Shown here piece after piece: positions 24,619 through 33,005 of a stretch of DNA of 39,020 bases. The stretch comes from Bernardetia sp. GTDB lineage: Bacteria; Bacteroidota; Bacteroidia; Cytophagales; Bernardetiaceae. The DNA is taken from the NCBI RefSeq assembly GCF_020630935.1, contig NZ_JAHDIG010000048.1, positions 1 to 39,020 of the forward strand, read 5' to 3'. Positions within the stretch are counted from its first letter, which is position 1. Every line of letters begins with the position of its first letter. Both the position numbers and the translations under genes were made by a program. The notes beneath the pieces were generated by a model. The model was not told the origin of the DNA. It saw nothing but the letters and a program-made list of their open reading frames with translations, and did no database searches.

Positions 24619-26550
24619 ATGAAATTTAGAAAAATTGAGTTCATAGTTTTACCTTTTTGTTTTCTTTTAGCAATCGGCTTTACTGCTTACTCTATCAGAA
24701 ATATTATTTTAGATAAAGATAAAGAAACAAGAATTTTGGTTAATGAAACAGCACTAAGTGTGAGTTCATTTGTAAGTAAATACAATTATCAACTGTTGAT
24801 GTTGCAAAGTAGGGCAGAAGAACTAATGTCTGATAATTTTGATACGCAATATATCACAAGCAGATTAGTTGAGGTTGAAGGAAAAGGATGGGAATTACAG
24901 CCTGAAAAAAGTGATACATTAACATCATTTGGTAGGGTTACTGGTACAGGGTCTATAAAGAATTTATCTAATGATAAAATTCAAGAAATTTATATGGCAG
25001 AAACTTTGAATAAGTCTTTTATCAGTACTAGCCGTATTTTGCCTAACTCACCATTTACGTACTACATTTCAAAAGCAAATTTTTTCAATTTAACCCCTAG
25101 ATACACAGAGGATTTTGCTTTTTTTAGTGATGAATATATCACATTTGACTTGTTTACTTCTGGCTTACCTAAAAACAACCCTAGCAAAAGTATATTTTGG
25201 TCAAAACCTTATATAGATACTGGAGGAAAAGGACTTATGACAACAGCAGGAATACCTTTATATCACAAAGGGGAGTTTAAGGGGAATATTTCCATTGACA
25301 TGTTGTTTGTCAATATTGCAGATTACTTAAAAAGTAATACTTTTAAAGACCAGCACATCAGTTTGGTTGATGATTATAATCAATTAGTTTCCAGTACATT
25401 GGAAAACATTGTGACTTCTGATTCAATTCCTACATTATCCCATCTAATTGGTGATTCCAGTCAAATAGAAATATTTGATAAACAAACTTTTTTATGGCAT
25501 AAAAACAAACGAATATTTGTTTCAGACATACCAAATTCCAAATGGAAAATATTCCACTTCGAAACGGCTAAAGAATTTTACGGCTCAATTATCTTCGATA
25601 TTGCATATATTATTTTTGCTAACCTTTTTTTGTTGGTAATAATATACTTACTCTTTAATACAAATAGATTGAGGATTAGAAATAAAGATGCCAAAATTAA
25701 GGCTGAAAATGCTAATCAAAAAATTAAAGAAAGTATAAATTATGCAAGTCGCATACAACAGGCACTTATTCCATCTACACAAGCACTGAAAAATAACTTT
25801 GCTGAACACTTTGTTTTTTGGCGTCCACGAGACGTAGTTAGTGGGGATTATTATTGGGTAAGAGATATTGGAGATGAGGTGGTAGTTGTTGTTGCTGATT
25901 GTACAGGACACGGCATACCTGGAGCTTTTATGAGTATGCTTGGAATTTCATTTCTAAATCAAATGGTAAGTAGTGGCAAAGTTTTGCCAGGGCAAATATT
26001 GGACGAGATGCGTAAAAATGTCAAACGCTCACTTAGGCAGAATTTAGGCTCAAACTCAAATAAAGATGGGATAGATATGGCTTTTTTTACTATTTGTAAA
26101 TCAGATAATCAACTTCGCTTTGCAGGTGCTCATAACCCACTTTATATAGTGAGGAAATACGAACCTAACTGCAACGATGTTGTAGAATTAAAAGAAAACA
26201 AAAGAGTAAGGCTAATAGAATCAGAAGACAAAAAATCATCATTCTATTTGATTGAACTAAAGCCAAATGCACAACCAGTAGGTATTTATCCTAAGGAACA
26301 GCCTTTTCATACACACCATATACAACTAAAAAAAGGAGACTGCTTATATGCTTTTTCAGATGGTTTCTATGACCAAACGGGTGGAGCTAATAAACGCAAA
26401 TTTATGAGTAAAAAATTCAAGCAATTACTCTTACAACTAGCTGATAAGCCTATGAATATCCAAAAAAAGGAATTAGGTACAACGATAGATAATTGGCAGC
26501 AAGACTATCAACAAGTGGATGATATGCTCATACTTGGTATCAGAGTATAA
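24619..26550 (+). CDS. membrane sensor SpoIIE phosphatase (extracellular Cache-like domain)
   Basis: A 643-residue protein with a membrane helix at about residues 8-26, a roughly 290-residue periplasmic sensor region, a second helix at about 322-344, a short coiled coil, and a SpoIIE/PP2C domain from about residue 372 to the end. The sensor region has the layout of a double Cache domain (long first helix, then ...KSIFWSKPYIDTGGKGLMTT, IPLYHKGEFKGNISIDMLF). The phosphatase motifs are intact: RPRDVVSGDYYW, DCTGHGIPGAFM, DGIDMA, SDGFYDQTGG and VDDMLILG. The linker SINYASRIQQALIPS is nearly the same as in the two propeller-type phosphatases of the window, so the catalytic halves are close paralogues. 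No HAMP domain was recognised. The ligand and phosphoprotein partner are unknown. Confidence 0.9.
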   Translation: MKFRKIEFIVLPFCFLLAIGFTAYSIRNIILDKDKETRILVNETALSVSSFVSKYNYQLLMLQSRAEELMSDNFDTQYITSRLVEVEGKGWELQPEKSDTLTSFGRVTGTGSIKNLSNDKIQEIYMAETLNKSFISTSRILPNSPFTYYISKANFFNLTPRYTEDFAFFSDEYITFDLFTSGLPKNNPSKSIFWSKPYIDTGGKGLMTTAGIPLYHKGEFKGNISIDMLFVNIADYLKSNTFKDQHISLVDDYNQLVSSTLENIVTSDSIPTLSHLIGDSSQIEIFDKQTFLWHKNKRIFVSDIPNSKWKIFHFETAKEFYGSIIFDIAYIIFANLFLLVIIYLLFNTNRLRIRNKDAKIKAENANQKIKESINYASRIQQALIPSTQALKNNFAEHFVFWRPRDVVSGDYYWVRDIGDEVVVVVADCTGHGIPGAFMSMLGISFLNQMVSSGKVLPGQILDEMRKNVKRSLRQNLGSNSNKDGIDMAFFTICKSDNQLRFAGAHNPLYIVRKYEPNCNDVVELKENKRVRLIESEDKKSSFYLIELKPNAQPVGIYPKEQPFHTHHIQLKKGDCLYAFSDGFYDQTGGANKRKFMSKKFKQLLLQLADKPMNIQKKELGTTIDNWQQDYQQVDDMLILGIRV

Positions 26551-27951: not shown

Positions 27952-30582
27952 TTAGTCTGTAACAGATTCTAAAATACTATTAATAAACTGCTGAATAGTT
28001 TTTTTATAAAATTCTGTCGTTTCTATCTGTTTTAAATGCGTTTCCAATGGCAAAAAATAAGTATTGCCAGCAAAAAATTCATCTGTTCCTACTCCTAAAG
28101 ACGTATCTAAGCAAGCAGGGACATAAATTACAGGAATGGCTATATCACTGCTTTTCAAGACAAACATTCCATCTTTATCACAATAAATAGAACTGCCATC
28201 TGGAAAAACAAATTCGTTTTTAGATTCTGCATGTGCCATAATTTTCTTTGCTGCTCTATAATCGGCTACTTCTAATTTTATAATTTTTCCTGTGTTGAGA
28301 ATAAGTTTATGCTTGGAAATAACCAATTCATTTTCAGAGTTTATATAAACCTGTTTTACGTTCTTTAAGACAGAGTGTAAGTCTAATGCTTTCGGTATTT
28401 TTGATATATTTTTAGAGTATTCGTTGTAAGCATCAATCAAATTTTGAGAAGCTGATTCATTGTGTGTCGTAATTTCTATTTCTCTATCTCCAATAGAATC
28501 CCATTCTATTTCTGAATACTCTATTGGAGATTGAATGTAATAAAAAAGTCCTTTAAAATGTACAAACCGTGAGTAAGAAGACCATTTCCATTGGGGAAAA
28601 CTAATTTTCTTTCTAATAAAATCCTTTCCTACATTTTGTATTGAAATTTCTTTAATGCTTGCATCAAACATTAAAATTATACGTTCTTCAAATTCATCTA
28701 AACCTATTTGCACATCACCACCTTTATACTTCAAATTTTGATTTAGCCTTTCCCAACCTTTCTCCACATAATAACCTTGATGTTTTTTAGATAAAGTAAG
28801 TCGCATTAGACTTTTCTGATTCGTAATCATGTAAAACTCTGTATCTGAAAAATACATTTTTATCTTAGAACTCACCTCTGGAAATAAAATTGGACATTCG
28901 AAGACGGTATTCTTGCTTTCCTTCTCTTCTTCAATAAGCTGCACTACTGCACCAATTTCCTCAAACTCGTCTCTTAATCTATTGGCTTCTTTTAAATAAA
29001 GATTTTTCTTAATCGTTTGAGGAGTATATTCTACTACATCTTTCGCTTTACCTAATGAAACTTCCATTATATCACGGATTTTCTTGATAACCTCTAGTTT
29101 TCTACTTCCTGCATTTTTCAAAATTAAAGAGTAGAGTTGTAGCTCCTGTTTATTTTTCTTTCTTCTGTTCTTTCTAGTAGGCGAATTTGCCCAAAGTCTA
29201 TTCAAATCTAATTTGAGCGTTTGAATATGCGTTTTGCTGTTTTGCTTCTTTTTATAAAGCGTTACTTTGCCTTTATTTTCATAATTTTCAGTTTCTAAAT
29301 CGGTATGAATCCAATACGAAATATATTTTTTGTATTCTTCTAAGGCTGTTTTGGTTTCTGTGTTTTGGATTGCTTCTGTGGAAGAAAGGTAAAATACTTC
29401 CTTGTTTTTTAAATCTAGTTCTTTGATATTTTCATCGAAAAATGTCTCTATTCCCTGTTTTGCTGTGAGGTCTGTACCAAAATGCAGCAAACTTTGAATT
29501 ACATTATGAACTGTATCTAATGCTATTTTTTGATATTTTTTTTCACTCACTAGATAAAAATGACAAACAAAATCACTCTTCGGATGCTCTGCAATCGCAA
29601 TCGCTACAGCAAATGTTAAAATTTTTGGAGTTCCCCAATTTTTAAGCGAAATATCAATTAGAAAAATACGTTCCGAATCATTCTGATGAGGAGGAACTTC
29701 TCTGTTGATAAAAAGAGCTTCGTTGTTGGCAAGACGAGAGAGAAAAATCAAATCATCATTGGCATACTCTGAAATGAGAAGTCTGTCGTAAGAACCTTTG
29801 TTTGTCAAATCTGAAACACCTCCCAACGGCTGTTGGCTCGGTTGTGTATTGTGAAAAGGAATATTCAGACCTGCAAAAAGCGATGGAATAAGCGAGCCAA
29901 TTACAAACGTATCTTTATCTTTTTGAAGTTCTTCTATAAGGTCAGTTTCTTTGGTTTTGCTTGGCTGTTGTTTTTTATCGTCTTCTACCTCTATTTTTTG
30001 GGGTTTGATGCGTGGAATAGATGCTATTTTTTCTAGAATAGACTCTCTTGTGGGGAATTTATCTGCCACCAATCCCATCGGCTTGAAGTCGCTGTTTAAT
30101 GGATAGTAACTCAAAAGCTCTTTATGTGAGTCTATATCCTTCTCTTTTAACTGTTCTATTAAACGTTTAGATTTTTTTACAGAAATAGAATTGTGTGTAT
30201 TCTCAAAAATAGCTTGCAGAACCAAAATGCGTTTTGTTCCTGTCTTGTATTCATTAGGAAGTGTTTTTAAAATTCGCAATAAATTAAATGCTTTATCAAT
30301 ATTTTGTTCCCAGTGTTTTCCTTCCTTTTCATAGGTTTCTGCTGAACGAAAATTTTGTTTTATCGTTTCCAAATCATTCTCCGAAAAACTAACATTCGTA
30401 CCGATAAGTCCTAACAAAATAAGCCCAAAAGACGGCAAAGTCTGTGGTGCTAAAGTTTCCAATACTTCAATCAAATAATTTCGATATGCAATCGTCTGAC
30501 CATTGGGAATAGAAACCACCTCTCCGTTTTCTTCCCACTGCCAAAAATAATTGTCGTAACTCTGAAAATAATGAAATGCCAT
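27952..30582 (-). CDS. vWA protein with L7/L12-like and propeller-like domains (MoxR-vWA-bpX-type system)
   Basis: An 876-residue soluble protein. Residues 1-220 are mostly helical and unrecognised. Residues 255-295 (GGVSDLTNKGSYDRLLISEY, FLSRLANNEALF) are the lead-in typical of vWA proteins in MoxR-vWA-bpX ternary systems. A vWA-like Rossmann domain covers about 300-430, where the metal site reads LIDISLKNWGT (Asp310 and Ser312), lacking the second serine of a full DxSxS. Residues 482-552 strongly resemble the C-terminal domain of ribosomal protein L7/L12 (SRKLEVIKKIRDIMEVSLGK, AKDVVE, EANRLRDEFEEIGAVVQLI). Residues 560-860 are strand-rich with Trp/Tyr repeats, consistent with a beta-propeller (bpX). 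It is the last gene of the cluster with the MoxR ATPase; a palindromic repeat lies in the 220-base gap before it. The role in the cell is not known; these systems are proposed to act in biological conflict. Confidence 0.78.
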   Translation of the reverse strand: MAFHYFQSYDNYFWQWEENGEVVSIPNGQTIAYRNYLIEVLETLAPQTLPSFGLILLGLIGTNVSFSENDLETIKQNFRSAETYEKEGKHWEQNIDKAFNLLRILKTLPNEYKTGTKRILVLQAIFENTHNSISVKKSKRLIEQLKEKDIDSHKELLSYYPLNSDFKPMGLVADKFPTRESILEKIASIPRIKPQKIEVEDDKKQQPSKTKETDLIEELQKDKDTFVIGSLIPSLFAGLNIPFHNTQPSQQPLGGVSDLTNKGSYDRLLISEYANDDLIFLSRLANNEALFINREVPPHQNDSERIFLIDISLKNWGTPKILTFAVAIAIAEHPKSDFVCHFYLVSEKKYQKIALDTVHNVIQSLLHFGTDLTAKQGIETFFDENIKELDLKNKEVFYLSSTEAIQNTETKTALEEYKKYISYWIHTDLETENYENKGKVTLYKKKQNSKTHIQTLKLDLNRLWANSPTRKNRRKKNKQELQLYSLILKNAGSRKLEVIKKIRDIMEVSLGKAKDVVEYTPQTIKKNLYLKEANRLRDEFEEIGAVVQLIEEEKESKNTVFECPILFPEVSSKIKMYFSDTEFYMITNQKSLMRLTLSKKHQGYYVEKGWERLNQNLKYKGGDVQIGLDEFEERIILMFDASIKEISIQNVGKDFIRKKISFPQWKWSSYSRFVHFKGLFYYIQSPIEYSEIEWDSIGDREIEITTHNESASQNLIDAYNEYSKNISKIPKALDLHSVLKNVKQVYINSENELVISKHKLILNTGKIIKLEVADYRAAKKIMAHAESKNEFVFPDGSSIYCDKDGMFVLKSSDIAIPVIYVPACLDTSLGVGTDEFFAGNTYFLPLETHLKQIETTEFYKKTIQQFINSILESVTD

Positions 30583-30601
30583 TTTTTACTTTGTATTTTT
30601 T

Positions 30602-30721
30602 TGAGGTCAAAGGATTTGATTTACAATTATTTCAATAAAAAATCTGTGTTGTATCTGTAAAATCTGTTATATCTGTGTTCTGATTATAAAGTACAGTCAA
30701 AGGCAAGCCATTTGACCTACA
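30602..30721. repeat. paired REP-like palindromes, family 1 (copy B), inside the MoxR-vWA cluster
   Basis: Unit 1 (30602-30625) reads TGAGGTCAAAGGA then TTTGATTTACA; unit 2 (30696-30721) reads GTCAAAGGCAAGCC then ATTTGACCTACA. They are 70 bases apart, and the spacer has four ATCTGT copies. Unit 2 aligns with copy A except for a few bases. The element occupies more than half of the gap between the bpX-like gene and the vWA gene. Confidence 0.65.
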
Positions 30722-30802
30722 CGTTTTTATTTAGTTTTGATTCTAAAATCAATGGTTTGTAAAGAAAAGACATACCTTTTCACTACACATAAAAATCTAA
30801 AT

Positions 30803-31627
30803 TTATCTAAAGCTCATCCTAAACGAACTCCTACTTAGTGGCATAAAATCACTTTTTGGAATCAAAAAAAACTGATTTTCTTCATTCCATACACTATAAA
30901 AACGGTCTTCCAAAAAATCCGCTTCATCATCAAAGATTTGATTAAACTTATTTCCTTCTGTTTTGATAATTGTATTTTCATACCAACTGCTATACGCTGT
31001 ATTTTTTAGCCTTTCCGAAATAGATTCTTGTAACATTGGAAACTGAAAATCGTAGCCTGTCGGAATGAAAAGATTATCCTTTTGCCAAAATGTTTTGATA
31101 GTTGATGAAAGAATTGGTAAAAGTGGTGTTCCCAAAATGAAGGCTTTTGTTTGTGATGAATCAAATTCGTTTTCTAAAATTACCCACTTCAAGTTTTTCA
31201 ACCGAACGGCTGGAGCAGTTTTGATATAATTTTCTAACTCGCTCACAGAAACTAACATTGCCTTAGCTTCTCGTTCTTCTTCTGAAACTATAAGTTTTGG
31301 CTGAACTACATTTACACTTTGAATATCAAAATTATTTTCAAAAACACTTGGTAAATTTATCGGAATAGCTCGTTTTATATCTGTCCAAAGCAGAGAGGGA
31401 ACGTTTCGCTGTGGCAAAAGACTATTTTGCAAATATAGTTTTCCATCTTTTTCATAATAGACAGCTTTTTGTGTCAAGATTTTTATAGTCTTGCTTTCTA
31501 CTTGTTCTTCTGTTAAGTTTTTTATCCATACAGAATCATCATCTATTGCCATTTTGAGATGTTCGTAGTGGCGAATAGCTGCTAGATTTTCTTTTTGTGA
31601 AATGTGTAGTTGCAAGTAGAAGTTCAT
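30803..31627 (-). CDS. probable bpX-type partner protein of the MoxR-vWA system
   Basis: A 274-residue soluble protein with no signal peptide. Its start codon directly follows the MoxR stop codon with no gap, so the two are co-translated. Features such as KILTQKAVYYEKDGKLYLQN, SLLWTDIKRAIPINLPS and AVRLKNLKWVILEN resemble what I recall of the bpX proteins in MoxR-vWA-beta-propeller ternary systems, but I cannot assign the bpX subtype. The 270-residue size is small for a complete propeller; the propeller-like C-terminus of the vWA protein may complete it. It is identified mainly by context, so confidence in the name is moderate. Confidence 0.6.
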   Translation of the reverse strand: MNFYLQLHISQKENLAAIRHYEHLKMAIDDDSVWIKNLTEEQVESKTIKILTQKAVYYEKDGKLYLQNSLLPQRNVPSLLWTDIKRAIPINLPSVFENNFDIQSVNVVQPKLIVSEEEREAKAMLVSVSELENYIKTAPAVRLKNLKWVILENEFDSSQTKAFILGTPLLPILSSTIKTFWQKDNLFIPTGYDFQFPMLQESISERLKNTAYSSWYENTIIKTEGNKFNQIFDDEADFLEDRFYSVWNEENQFFLIPKSDFMPLSRSSFRMSFR

Positions 31628-32812
31628 TTATACCGATTTTAAAATTTTCTGCCACAAATTTTCTATTTCTGTCTGAATATGCGTTTTGTGTTGCGTATTT
31701 TTTATCCAATTCGAACGATTTTGCAAGTAGCGCAACTTATCTTTTATCAAGTTTTTCTGTTCAAAACTTTGGTTTTCCTGCTCCCATTCTTTTTGCAAGC
31801 TCATAATTTCCTTTATCAATTCTTCTGCATTAGGAATGTTGTTAGAAAGAGCTTGTGGATGATTAGTAAGATGATTTTCTGTTTCATTTTGCTTGTCCAA
31901 ATCTTTCTCAATGACAGCATTAATGATTCCCTGCAAGATTTCTACTTGTTCTTCATTGTCCCAAATGTATTTCAAAACCCACAAATCAGACAAAATCGCC
32001 TTCTCACGTCCACACATTACAGCACTTGCAGCTACCAAATTCTGCACTTTTACAGCTCTTCGGTCAGAAACTTTTACACCTGTATTTCTCAAACTATGAA
32101 TCAAATCCAAATACGTCTTCAAAACATCAGACAAATCTACTTGCTTTGAAAGGCTTTGCAGCTCAATAATTTCTTGAGGTGTGATTTTCGGCTGCTCATT
32201 TTCATCAGAACCATTTAATTTACCTTTTTCTAATTTTCTACCAGCCATCAAAACAGCCTGCAAACTATCTGGATGTACATTTTCACACTTTACACGCACC
32301 AAAAAACGGTCTAAAAGTGCGCCTAAAGCCTCGTCTTCTGGCAGTTGATTGCTCGCTCCGACAAACATCAGTGCAGGAAGTTTTTTCGTTTCCTGTCCAC
32401 GCCTAAAAATTCGCTCATTCAGAGCCATCAAAAGACTGTTCAAAATCGCACTATTAGCATTGAAAATTTCATCTAAAAAGACAACAGAAGCCTCTGGAAG
32501 CATTCCTGTTGTATTAGTAATGAGTTCGCCTTCTTTGAGTTTTCGAATATCAAACGCTCCGAAAAGTTCATTTGGTTCGGTAAAGCGAGTGAGCAAATAC
32601 TCAAAATTTTGTCCGTCTTCTACCGAATTAGAGAGCATTCTGACAATAGCACTTTTTGCTGTACCAGGTGCGCCCAAAAGAAAAGCATTCTCTCTTGCAA
32701 TAAGCGCAATACCAAGCAAATCAATAACTTCATCTTTTCCAACAAAAGCATTTTTGATGAAAGAAAGGACTGTATTTAGTTTTTCTAAAGCGTTTTTTTG
32801 TGTGGTTTGCAT
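31628..32812 (-). CDS. MoxR-type AAA+ ATPase
   Basis: A 394-residue AAA+ ATPase of the MoxR/RavA clade, chaperone-like enzymes that work with vWA partners. The Walker A is GAPGTAKS (residues 47-54), followed by FEYLLTRFTEPNELFGAFDI, a MoxR signature; the Walker B is VVFLDE (110-115), then IFNANSAILNSLLMALNER and the sensor-1 stretch ALMFVGASN. The arginine-finger region is ALLDRFLVRV. The C-terminal 120 residues are helical and end in a lysine- and glutamine-rich coil. It is the first gene of the three-gene minus-strand cluster. A palindromic element begins 25 bases upstream of the start codon, in the probable promoter or leader. Confidence 0.92.
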   Translation of the reverse strand: MQTTQKNALEKLNTVLSFIKNAFVGKDEVIDLLGIALIARENAFLLGAPGTAKSAIVRMLSNSVEDGQNFEYLLTRFTEPNELFGAFDIRKLKEGELITNTTGMLPEASVVFLDEIFNANSAILNSLLMALNERIFRRGQETKKLPALMFVGASNQLPEDEALGALLDRFLVRVKCENVHPDSLQAVLMAGRKLEKGKLNGSDENEQPKITPQEIIELQSLSKQVDLSDVLKTYLDLIHSLRNTGVKVSDRRAVKVQNLVAASAVMCGREKAILSDLWVLKYIWDNEEQVEILQGIINAVIEKDLDKQNETENHLTNHPQALSNNIPNAEELIKEIMSLQKEWEQENQSFEQKNLIKDKLRYLQNRSNWIKNTQHKTHIQTEIENLWQKILKSV

Positions 32813-32836
32813 AAATTTGCATTCTTATTTGTACAT

Positions 32837-32964
32837 CAGTCTTCCAGACTGGTCTTTAAAATGATAAAGTTTCAAAAATTGATTTTATCAAAAAATAAAC
32901 TTTGGCTTTTTTTATTTAAATCTACAATTTGTATTCTAAAGTCAGGCTGGAAGCCTAACCTACA
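32837..32964. repeat. paired REP-like palindromes, family 1 (copy C), between moxR and rlmF
   Basis: Unit 1 is CAGTCT-TCC-AGACTG (32837-32851). Unit 2 is 32941-32964, with AGGCT-GGA-AGCCT as stem, beginning GTCAGG and ending AACCTACA. The two cores, CTTCCAG and (as reverse complement) CTTCCAG, point in opposite directions about 90 bases apart, the arrangement of a REP doublet. It fills most of the divergent intergenic region and lies within 25 bases of the moxR start and 41 of the rlmF start. Confidence 0.7.
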
Positions 32965-33005
32965 AAGAAACCAAAAATAAATATTCTCTTTAGAAAACAA
33001 CCATT

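Follow-up and report, generated by a model that had tools for sequence, protein, structure and literature searches.

The window analysed here, a 39,020-nucleotide (nt) stretch of Bernardetia sp. (contig NZ_JAHDIG010000048.1), carries at positions 27952-32812 three adjacent minus-strand genes for a MoxR-clade ATPase, a bpX protein and a large protein with a vWA-like domain. The questions raised by this locus are to which system it belongs, whether it forms a distinct version of that system, and what the system may do in the cell. Judged by its protein domains, the locus is the already known beta-propeller MoxR-vWA ternary system, described as subsystem 4 by Kaur, Burroughs, Iyer and Aravind (2020, eLife 9:e52696; PMC7159879). 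What stands out is the unusual gene organisation of this real and known system in the window's genus, where, in the three carriers, its five genes are split over separate chromosomal places and are all retained.

The first gene (31628..32812, minus strand) encodes bpMoxR, a MoxR-clade AAA+ ATPase of 394 residues with the P-loop GAPGTAKS, matched by PF20030 at 326 bits (cut-off 27) and 90-91% identical to its relatives in the genus. The form GxPGTAKS is present in 86 of 86 MoxR proteins, a count from which locus L051 was additionally left out, and it is the peculiar form named in PMC7159879. The MoxR stop is directly abutted by the start of the bpX2 gene (30803..31627, minus strand), whose 274-residue product covers the full PF19918 model at 240.1 bits (cut-off 23.6). 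A 220-bp gap (30583..30802), containing a short interspersed repeat with matches elsewhere in the genome, separates bpX2 from the gene of the 876-residue vWA component (27952..30582, minus strand). According to Pfam and a predicted model, this protein consists of (i) the helical bpX0 domain at residues 28-185 (30028..30501; PF19915, 113.9 bits, cut-off 27); (ii) a putative vWA-type alpha/beta domain at about residues 304-446 (29245..29673); (iii) a ribosomal L7/L12 C-terminal domain at residues 485-549 (28936..29130; PF00542, 58 bits, cut-off 25.9, and 64.2 bits in a genome-wide scan); (iv) a propeller-like all-beta region at about residues 573-787 (28222..28866), recognised by predicted strands and weak Foldseek propeller matches; and (v) the bpX1 domain at residues 788-870 (27973..28221; PF19917, 77.8 bits, cut-off 27, and 82.8 bits in a second search), all on the minus strand. 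Adjacency, strand, the abutting start and the length of 876 residues agree with the initial annotation, and its assignment to the MoxR and bpX families is borne out by matches far over the curated cut-offs and by the description in PMC7159879. The L12 domain and the gap with its repeat had been overlooked.

The vWA domain is less clear-cut. Profile searches, proposed earlier as a check, matched bpMoxR, bpX2, bpX0 and bpX1, but no Pfam vWA model matched the 876-residue protein, and searches of the PDB with the vWA and bpX2 sequence alignments returned 0 matches. Of the two motifs pointed out before, the lead-in "GGVSDLTNKG...RLANNEALF" proved to be conserved among relatives, whereas the "LIDIS" metal site keeps one half of a canonical metal ion-dependent adhesion site (MIDAS) and lacks a canonical second half. 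The retained half has the form D-x-S/T-x-K/R: over 81 complete vWA proteins (three incomplete ones were left out), D310 is invariant, S or T stands at position 312 in all of them and K or R at position 314 in 77, and the fourth strand ends without a conserved aspartate. The predicted model of the whole protein, with a mean predicted local distance difference test score (pLDDT) of 80.6 and a predicted template modelling (TM) score of 0.45, has a helical N-terminus, alpha/beta structure at about residues 304-446 and, in its C-terminal half, mainly beta structure. A Foldseek search with it yielded 11 matches in the PDB at E<=0.001, mostly propellers such as Nup120 and DDB1, with E-values of about 1e-4 to 1e-3 and query TM-scores of 0.09-0.12. 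The bpX2 model has a pLDDT of 87.3, and its fold search gave no PDB match at E<=0.001. The region 304-446 is therefore regarded as a putative vWA-type domain because of its predicted alpha/beta order, its context between bpX0 and bpX1 and the published description of the subsystem.

A possible distinct version had been proposed on account of the small middle protein and the propeller-like sequence fused to the vWA protein. Both features are standard in the loci of relatives, so that neither sets this locus apart. The comparison is based on 80 named loci, which rank highest in MoxR similarity among the 504 relatives given by a MoxR alignment scan with one genome per species, and is thereby biased towards Chryseobacterium (23 loci) and Flavobacterium and its kin (18 loci). 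The usual order is bpX4 - bpMoxR - bpX2 - vWA - bpX3 on one strand. Five parts in this order and on one strand are found in 70 of the 80 loci, with median spacings along the operon of 20, -28, -1 and -11 nt and, in five loci, one gap of more than 300 nt (maximum 3,017 nt). Of the other-genus loci that were examined individually, L018, L019, L020, L021, L023 and L024 contain all five genes, L025 has no detected bpX4, and the operon of L014 is interrupted by a contig end. A six-frame search added L109 and L128, the latter with bpX4 as two overlapping frames, giving 72 loci with all five genes; it recovered each of the apparent losses (MoxR in L091, bpX2 in L109, bpX4 in L128), which were ruled out. 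Seven loci (L056, L061, L068, L072, L087, L091 and L125) leave the contig with their visible parts in place. In all 79 loci from other genera the five-gene set stands together as far as the contigs extend; the remaining one, L051, belongs to the window's genus. As a separate observation, bpX3 is represented by two overlapping open reading frames (ORFs) in 27 of the 80 named loci (Chryseobacterium L098-L130; L084, L090, L111 and L127).

Three of seven genomes of the window's genus, namely that of the window (G000), G001 and G004, contain bpX2, and in 3/3 carriers the set is split over two or three places with all parts retained. In G000 the middle three genes lie on contig C48, the one analysed here, where bpX3 is not beside the vWA gene and bpX4 is unlinked; bpX4 (225 bits) is on C76, and bpX3 (112.7 bits, with TPR hits) is on C56, 105 nt from the contig end. 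In both other carriers bpX4 is linked to MoxR. On a single contig of G001, bpX4, MoxR, bpX2 and the vWA gene are together and bpX3 is about 340 kb distant, while G004 has bpX4-MoxR on C134, bpX2-vWA on C101 and bpX3 on C13. The initial annotation had counted scattering of the genes in relatives against its reading; such scattering is absent from the other genera and present in the window's own. Since the unlinking of bpX3 and bpX4 is a difference of gene order and not of parts, membership in the beta-propeller ternary system stands.

The other four genomes of the genus (G002, G003, G005 and G006, the last one 84% complete) have no bpX2, bpX3 or bpX4, the vWA protein not having been searched for, and their best MoxR proteins are 31-32% identical. 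All parts are thus present in the three carriers, and bpX2, bpX3, bpX4 and a close bpMoxR are missing from the others, so the parts are present or absent jointly in spite of being unlinked. Five genes which are unlinked yet all kept or all missing provide a natural test of one functional unit, independent of the operon. The upstream neighbours of bpX4 (a protein of about 180 residues, FecCD and a phosphoribosyltransferase) are the same in the three carriers, so the set predates its splitting; in the four non-carriers the phosphoribosyltransferase is located among different genes. The genes that follow vWA, and a ComA gene close to bpX3, are likewise common to G001 and G004. The node support for the carrier grouping in the genus tree is 37-45, too low to tell gain, loss and transfer apart inside the genus.

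A decaying remnant of a broken operon, with leftovers on their way to loss, is one conceivable explanation of this arrangement. In its favour, a Y1/IS200-type transposase with inverted repeats on both sides occupies the MoxR/bpX2 junction of G001 (L022:8790-9416), and a phage-type integrase, preceded by a GldM-like protein, ends 28 nt before bpX2 in G004 (L026:8405-9556). Interspersed repeats occur as well, and parts of the system are absent from four congeners. The five genes are nevertheless open in all three carriers, with ratios of non-synonymous to synonymous substitution rates (dN/dS) of at most 0.34: in the three species pairs these are 0.04-0.07 for MoxR, 0.16-0.17 for bpX2, 0.25-0.34 for vWA, 0.15-0.20 for bpX4 and 0.10-0.19 for bpX3, compared with 0.06-0.12 in a pair of conserved neighbouring genes and 0.12-0.32 in another neighbour (YN00 or the fallback NG86, the output not saying which). 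All five genes in the carriers are under purifying selection as judged from these ratios, and a remnant is very unlikely. The splitting itself plausibly results from recombination between repeats of the kind found in the gap at 30583-30802. At E<=0.001 this repeat has at least 29 matches in G000 (itself included), at least 43 in G001 and at least 3 in G004, with 40 candidates scored per genome. The junction holding the transposase in G001 is the one broken in G004, and the repeat of the window sits at an unbroken junction. Separately, a 27-nt imperfect inverted repeat (78%) was noted upstream of the window's MoxR, at the usual bpX4 junction (32825-32969).

The L12 C-terminal domain offers a clue to the possible partner of the complex. 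After removal of the duplicates L064, L066 and L125 (of L021, L020 and L014, respectively), 84 vWA proteins were compared, and 38 of them contain this domain at one of four insertion sites, the sites being counted in the complete proteins. Site A, between vWA and the propeller, is used in three proteins, all from the window's genus, and is found in that genus alone among the 38; site B, before bpX1, in 18 proteins of Flavobacterium and its kin; site C, inside bpX1, in two; and site D, later in bpX1, in 15. A PF00542 scan of 12 genomes detected the ribosomal copy in 12/12 and an embedded copy over the threshold in five carriers, the window's genome included, and no embedded copy in the non-carriers G002, G003 and G005.

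The embedded domains were aligned to the 12 ribosomal L12 copies and numbered after E. coli. The residues R73 and K84 are taken by us to belong to the factor-binding face. Two lysines of E. coli L7/L12, K65 and K70, are reported in PMC10602876 to bind EF-Tu. In the window the equivalents of K65, K70, R73 and K84 are all basic. Among the 38 embedded domains a basic residue occurs in 30/38 at position 70, 29/38 at 73 and 30/37 at 84, and the total including position 65 is 109/151. At seven further lysines of the ribosomal protein (59, 81, 92, 95, 100, 108 and 120) K or R is found in 89/264, and one of these comparison lysines, position 59, is itself basic in 29/37. The difference between the face and the other lysines has the same direction in all four site groups: 12/12 against 7/21 for A, 44/71 against 47/126 for B, 8/8 against 3/14 for C and 45/60 against 32/103 for D. 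We read the L12 segment as a docking domain, the position of which in its host protein may matter little. A side finding is a 91-residue ORF located 34 nt after bpX3 in one Chryseobacterium locus (L121:10693-10968), with a weak L12-like match; the vWA protein of this locus is without L12.

Taken together, a chromosomal, five-part, ATP-driven remodelling complex, with docking to translation factors in the L12-bearing versions, is the explanation tentatively favoured here. The locus would encode the central block of a machine composed of bpX4, bpMoxR, bpX2, the bpX0-vWA-propeller-bpX1 protein and bpX3. On the model of known MoxR-vWA pairs, ATP hydrolysis by the MoxR ring would drive a conformational change via the vWA protein and thereby remodel a client, either a single protein or a complex, that the vWA and propeller parts hold. 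The TPR-repeat protein bpX3 as well as bpX2 and bpX4 would be obligatory partners, and the L12 domain could tether the complex to EF-Tu and related translation GTPases via the same basic face as in ribosomal L12. What the sequences show is that the five parts exist, stand in a common order in other genera, were kept jointly once scattered, are each under purifying selection and retain the basic L12 face; complex formation, remodelling and docking are what we infer from this. More probably, such a machine serves a dispensable physiological or stress function on the chromosome than acts as a mobile anti-phage cassette, and the retention of all scattered genes hints at an everyday job. A more specific proposal appears rather doubtful: a stable chromosomal machine working at the translation apparatus and not in defence, with L12 as an interchangeable tether docking on EF-Tu or EF-G, and unlinked in this genus without loss of parts. 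The L12 domain would then have been inserted on four or more separate occasions, or would have moved among four places in the same protein.

Several observations weigh against the remodelling complex and its docking. The L12 domain is missing from 46 of the 84 vWA proteins, among them those of all 23 Chryseobacterium loci, so the core activity does not require it; just 20 of 38 embedded domains have a basic residue at position 65; the L12 segment is not resolved in the predicted model (pLDDT about 40-67); and folding or a different partner could instead be the reason why the basic face is retained. No vWA protein is present among the 50 Foldseek matches listed for the 876-residue model. The five parts are not universal, as no bpX4 was detected near MoxR in locus L025 (G066), and the synonymous rates underlying the selection estimates, 0.6-1.4 for the five genes, are close to saturation. 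Outside one genus the spread is patchy, with bpX2 in 10/150 species of a Flavobacterium-like genus and the system in 10/395 of a phylum sample (window's genome counted), which also suits a conflict system. In G066 the MoxR ORF (L025:10476-12545) was in addition seen to be 689 residues long, with about 315 extra N-terminal residues.

A biological-conflict system would remain off until an invader is sensed, whereupon the MoxR-vWA action would deploy bpX3 or another part as an effector, so that containment or cell death would restrict the spread of phages. This role is a published inference of Kaur et al. (PMC7159879), to which the initial annotation had referred; a literature search found no experimental test of a bpX ternary system. 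The same paper gives an association with multicellularity for 44/118 organisms (P 0.0094), the weakest of four ternary systems. Besides the patchy distribution in most groups (also 11 of 118 relatives carry bpX2, the window's genome counted), the conflict role is favoured by the divergence of vWA, bpX2, bpX4 and bpX3, which is faster than that of MoxR and most flanking genes. Against it stands the near-core status in one genus, where bpX2 is present in 136 of 148 species (one copy broken); the MoxR proteins there are 92-100% identical to those of the Chryseobacterium loci, and the genus names used here rest on that identity. The chromosomal neighbours are common as well, operon flanks being shared by 201/253 Chryseobacterium locus pairs and 127/153 in Flavobacterium and its kin. 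Mobile carriage is almost absent: a search of 50,697 phage records found no match to the vWA protein, bpMoxR has none in viral contigs, and searches of mobile elements found one Hymenobacter plasmid with relatives at 20-26% identity. No effector enzyme domain was found in the parts scanned, and PADLOC gave a weak generic AAA hit on the locus and otherwise no match. PADLOC assigned 144 flanking proteins (6 of 150 were left out) to 65 families (among the 25 listed, type I restriction models with one matching protein each predominate, and none has more than 2), and 128 comparison proteins to 12 families, the latter set being not fully independent, since it includes the genes adjacent to bpX3 and bpX4 of the genus; this result does not count clearly against the conflict role. 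Finally, the window's genus keeps the set in pieces, which removes the linkage that a transferable cassette needs. The distribution, the stable sites and the scarcity of mobile carriage thus lend mixed support to the conflict role, which is considered somewhat unlikely but is still a rival to be taken seriously. The near-core status and the conserved L12 face pit defence against physiology and translation in a directly testable way.

A chaperone for complex assembly, comparable to RavA-ViaA or midasin, is another candidate, in which MoxR-vWA would insert or extract a subunit of a host complex, possibly one linked to the ribosome. Midasin has a role in ribosome assembly and acts on propeller clients, to which the L12 domain with its conserved factor face and the propeller in the vWA protein are a proposed parallel. 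The general chemistry of MoxR-vWA pairs outlined in PMC7159879 is also compatible with this role. The absence of the system from most Bacteroidota would, however, be odd for a ribosome assembly factor, and the resemblance to RavA is limited. RavA-ViaA likewise pairs a MoxR-clade ATPase with a vWA protein, and the NCBIfam RavA model does align to the window's MoxR, but at 185.7 bits against a cut-off of 681, so that a RavA orthologue was rejected; the partners differ, and a separate, more RavA-like gene is present on contig C10 of the same genome. A chaperone of this type is distinctly unlikely. The RavA-like protein on C10 (L002) has 511 residues and gives a second match to the bpMoxR model (28594-29199, 176 bits); proteins of this type also occur in G001, G002, G003, G005 and G006, and the other matches are standard MoxR genes.

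Compared with the published systems, the locus corresponds to subsystem 4 in most respects. According to PMC7159879, the vWA protein of that subsystem has a propeller together with additional helical and beta domains; a third component is variable and combines TPR with a propeller, and in several Bacteroidetes L12/ClpS is inserted "at different points". The same GXXXTAKS bpMoxR, a putative divergent vWA with a C-terminal propeller-like region, the N-terminal helical and C-terminal beta domains, the extra conserved proteins and the L12/ClpS insertion in Bacteroidota are found here. The window's genus differs in the splitting of the genes over separate chromosomal places, in the L12 domain at site A (3/38 L12-bearing proteins), and in a bpX3 without a strong hydrophobic segment (hydropathy maximum 0.72-1.04), for which the paper has a membrane segment. 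The FtsH-containing ternary system (subsystem 3, PMC7159879) has in common the GXXXTAKS P-loop and, as far as the putative domain goes, a divergent vWA; in contrast to it, no FtsH is among the operon-locus genes identified, no search aimed at it having been made. With ribosomal bL12 the embedded domain shares the fold family and the basic factor-binding face, but it is placed within a large vWA protein and lacks the L12 dimerisation domain. Beside the locus, on the opposite strand (24619-26550), a protein with a PDC sensor and a SpoIIE phosphatase domain was identified with Pfam.

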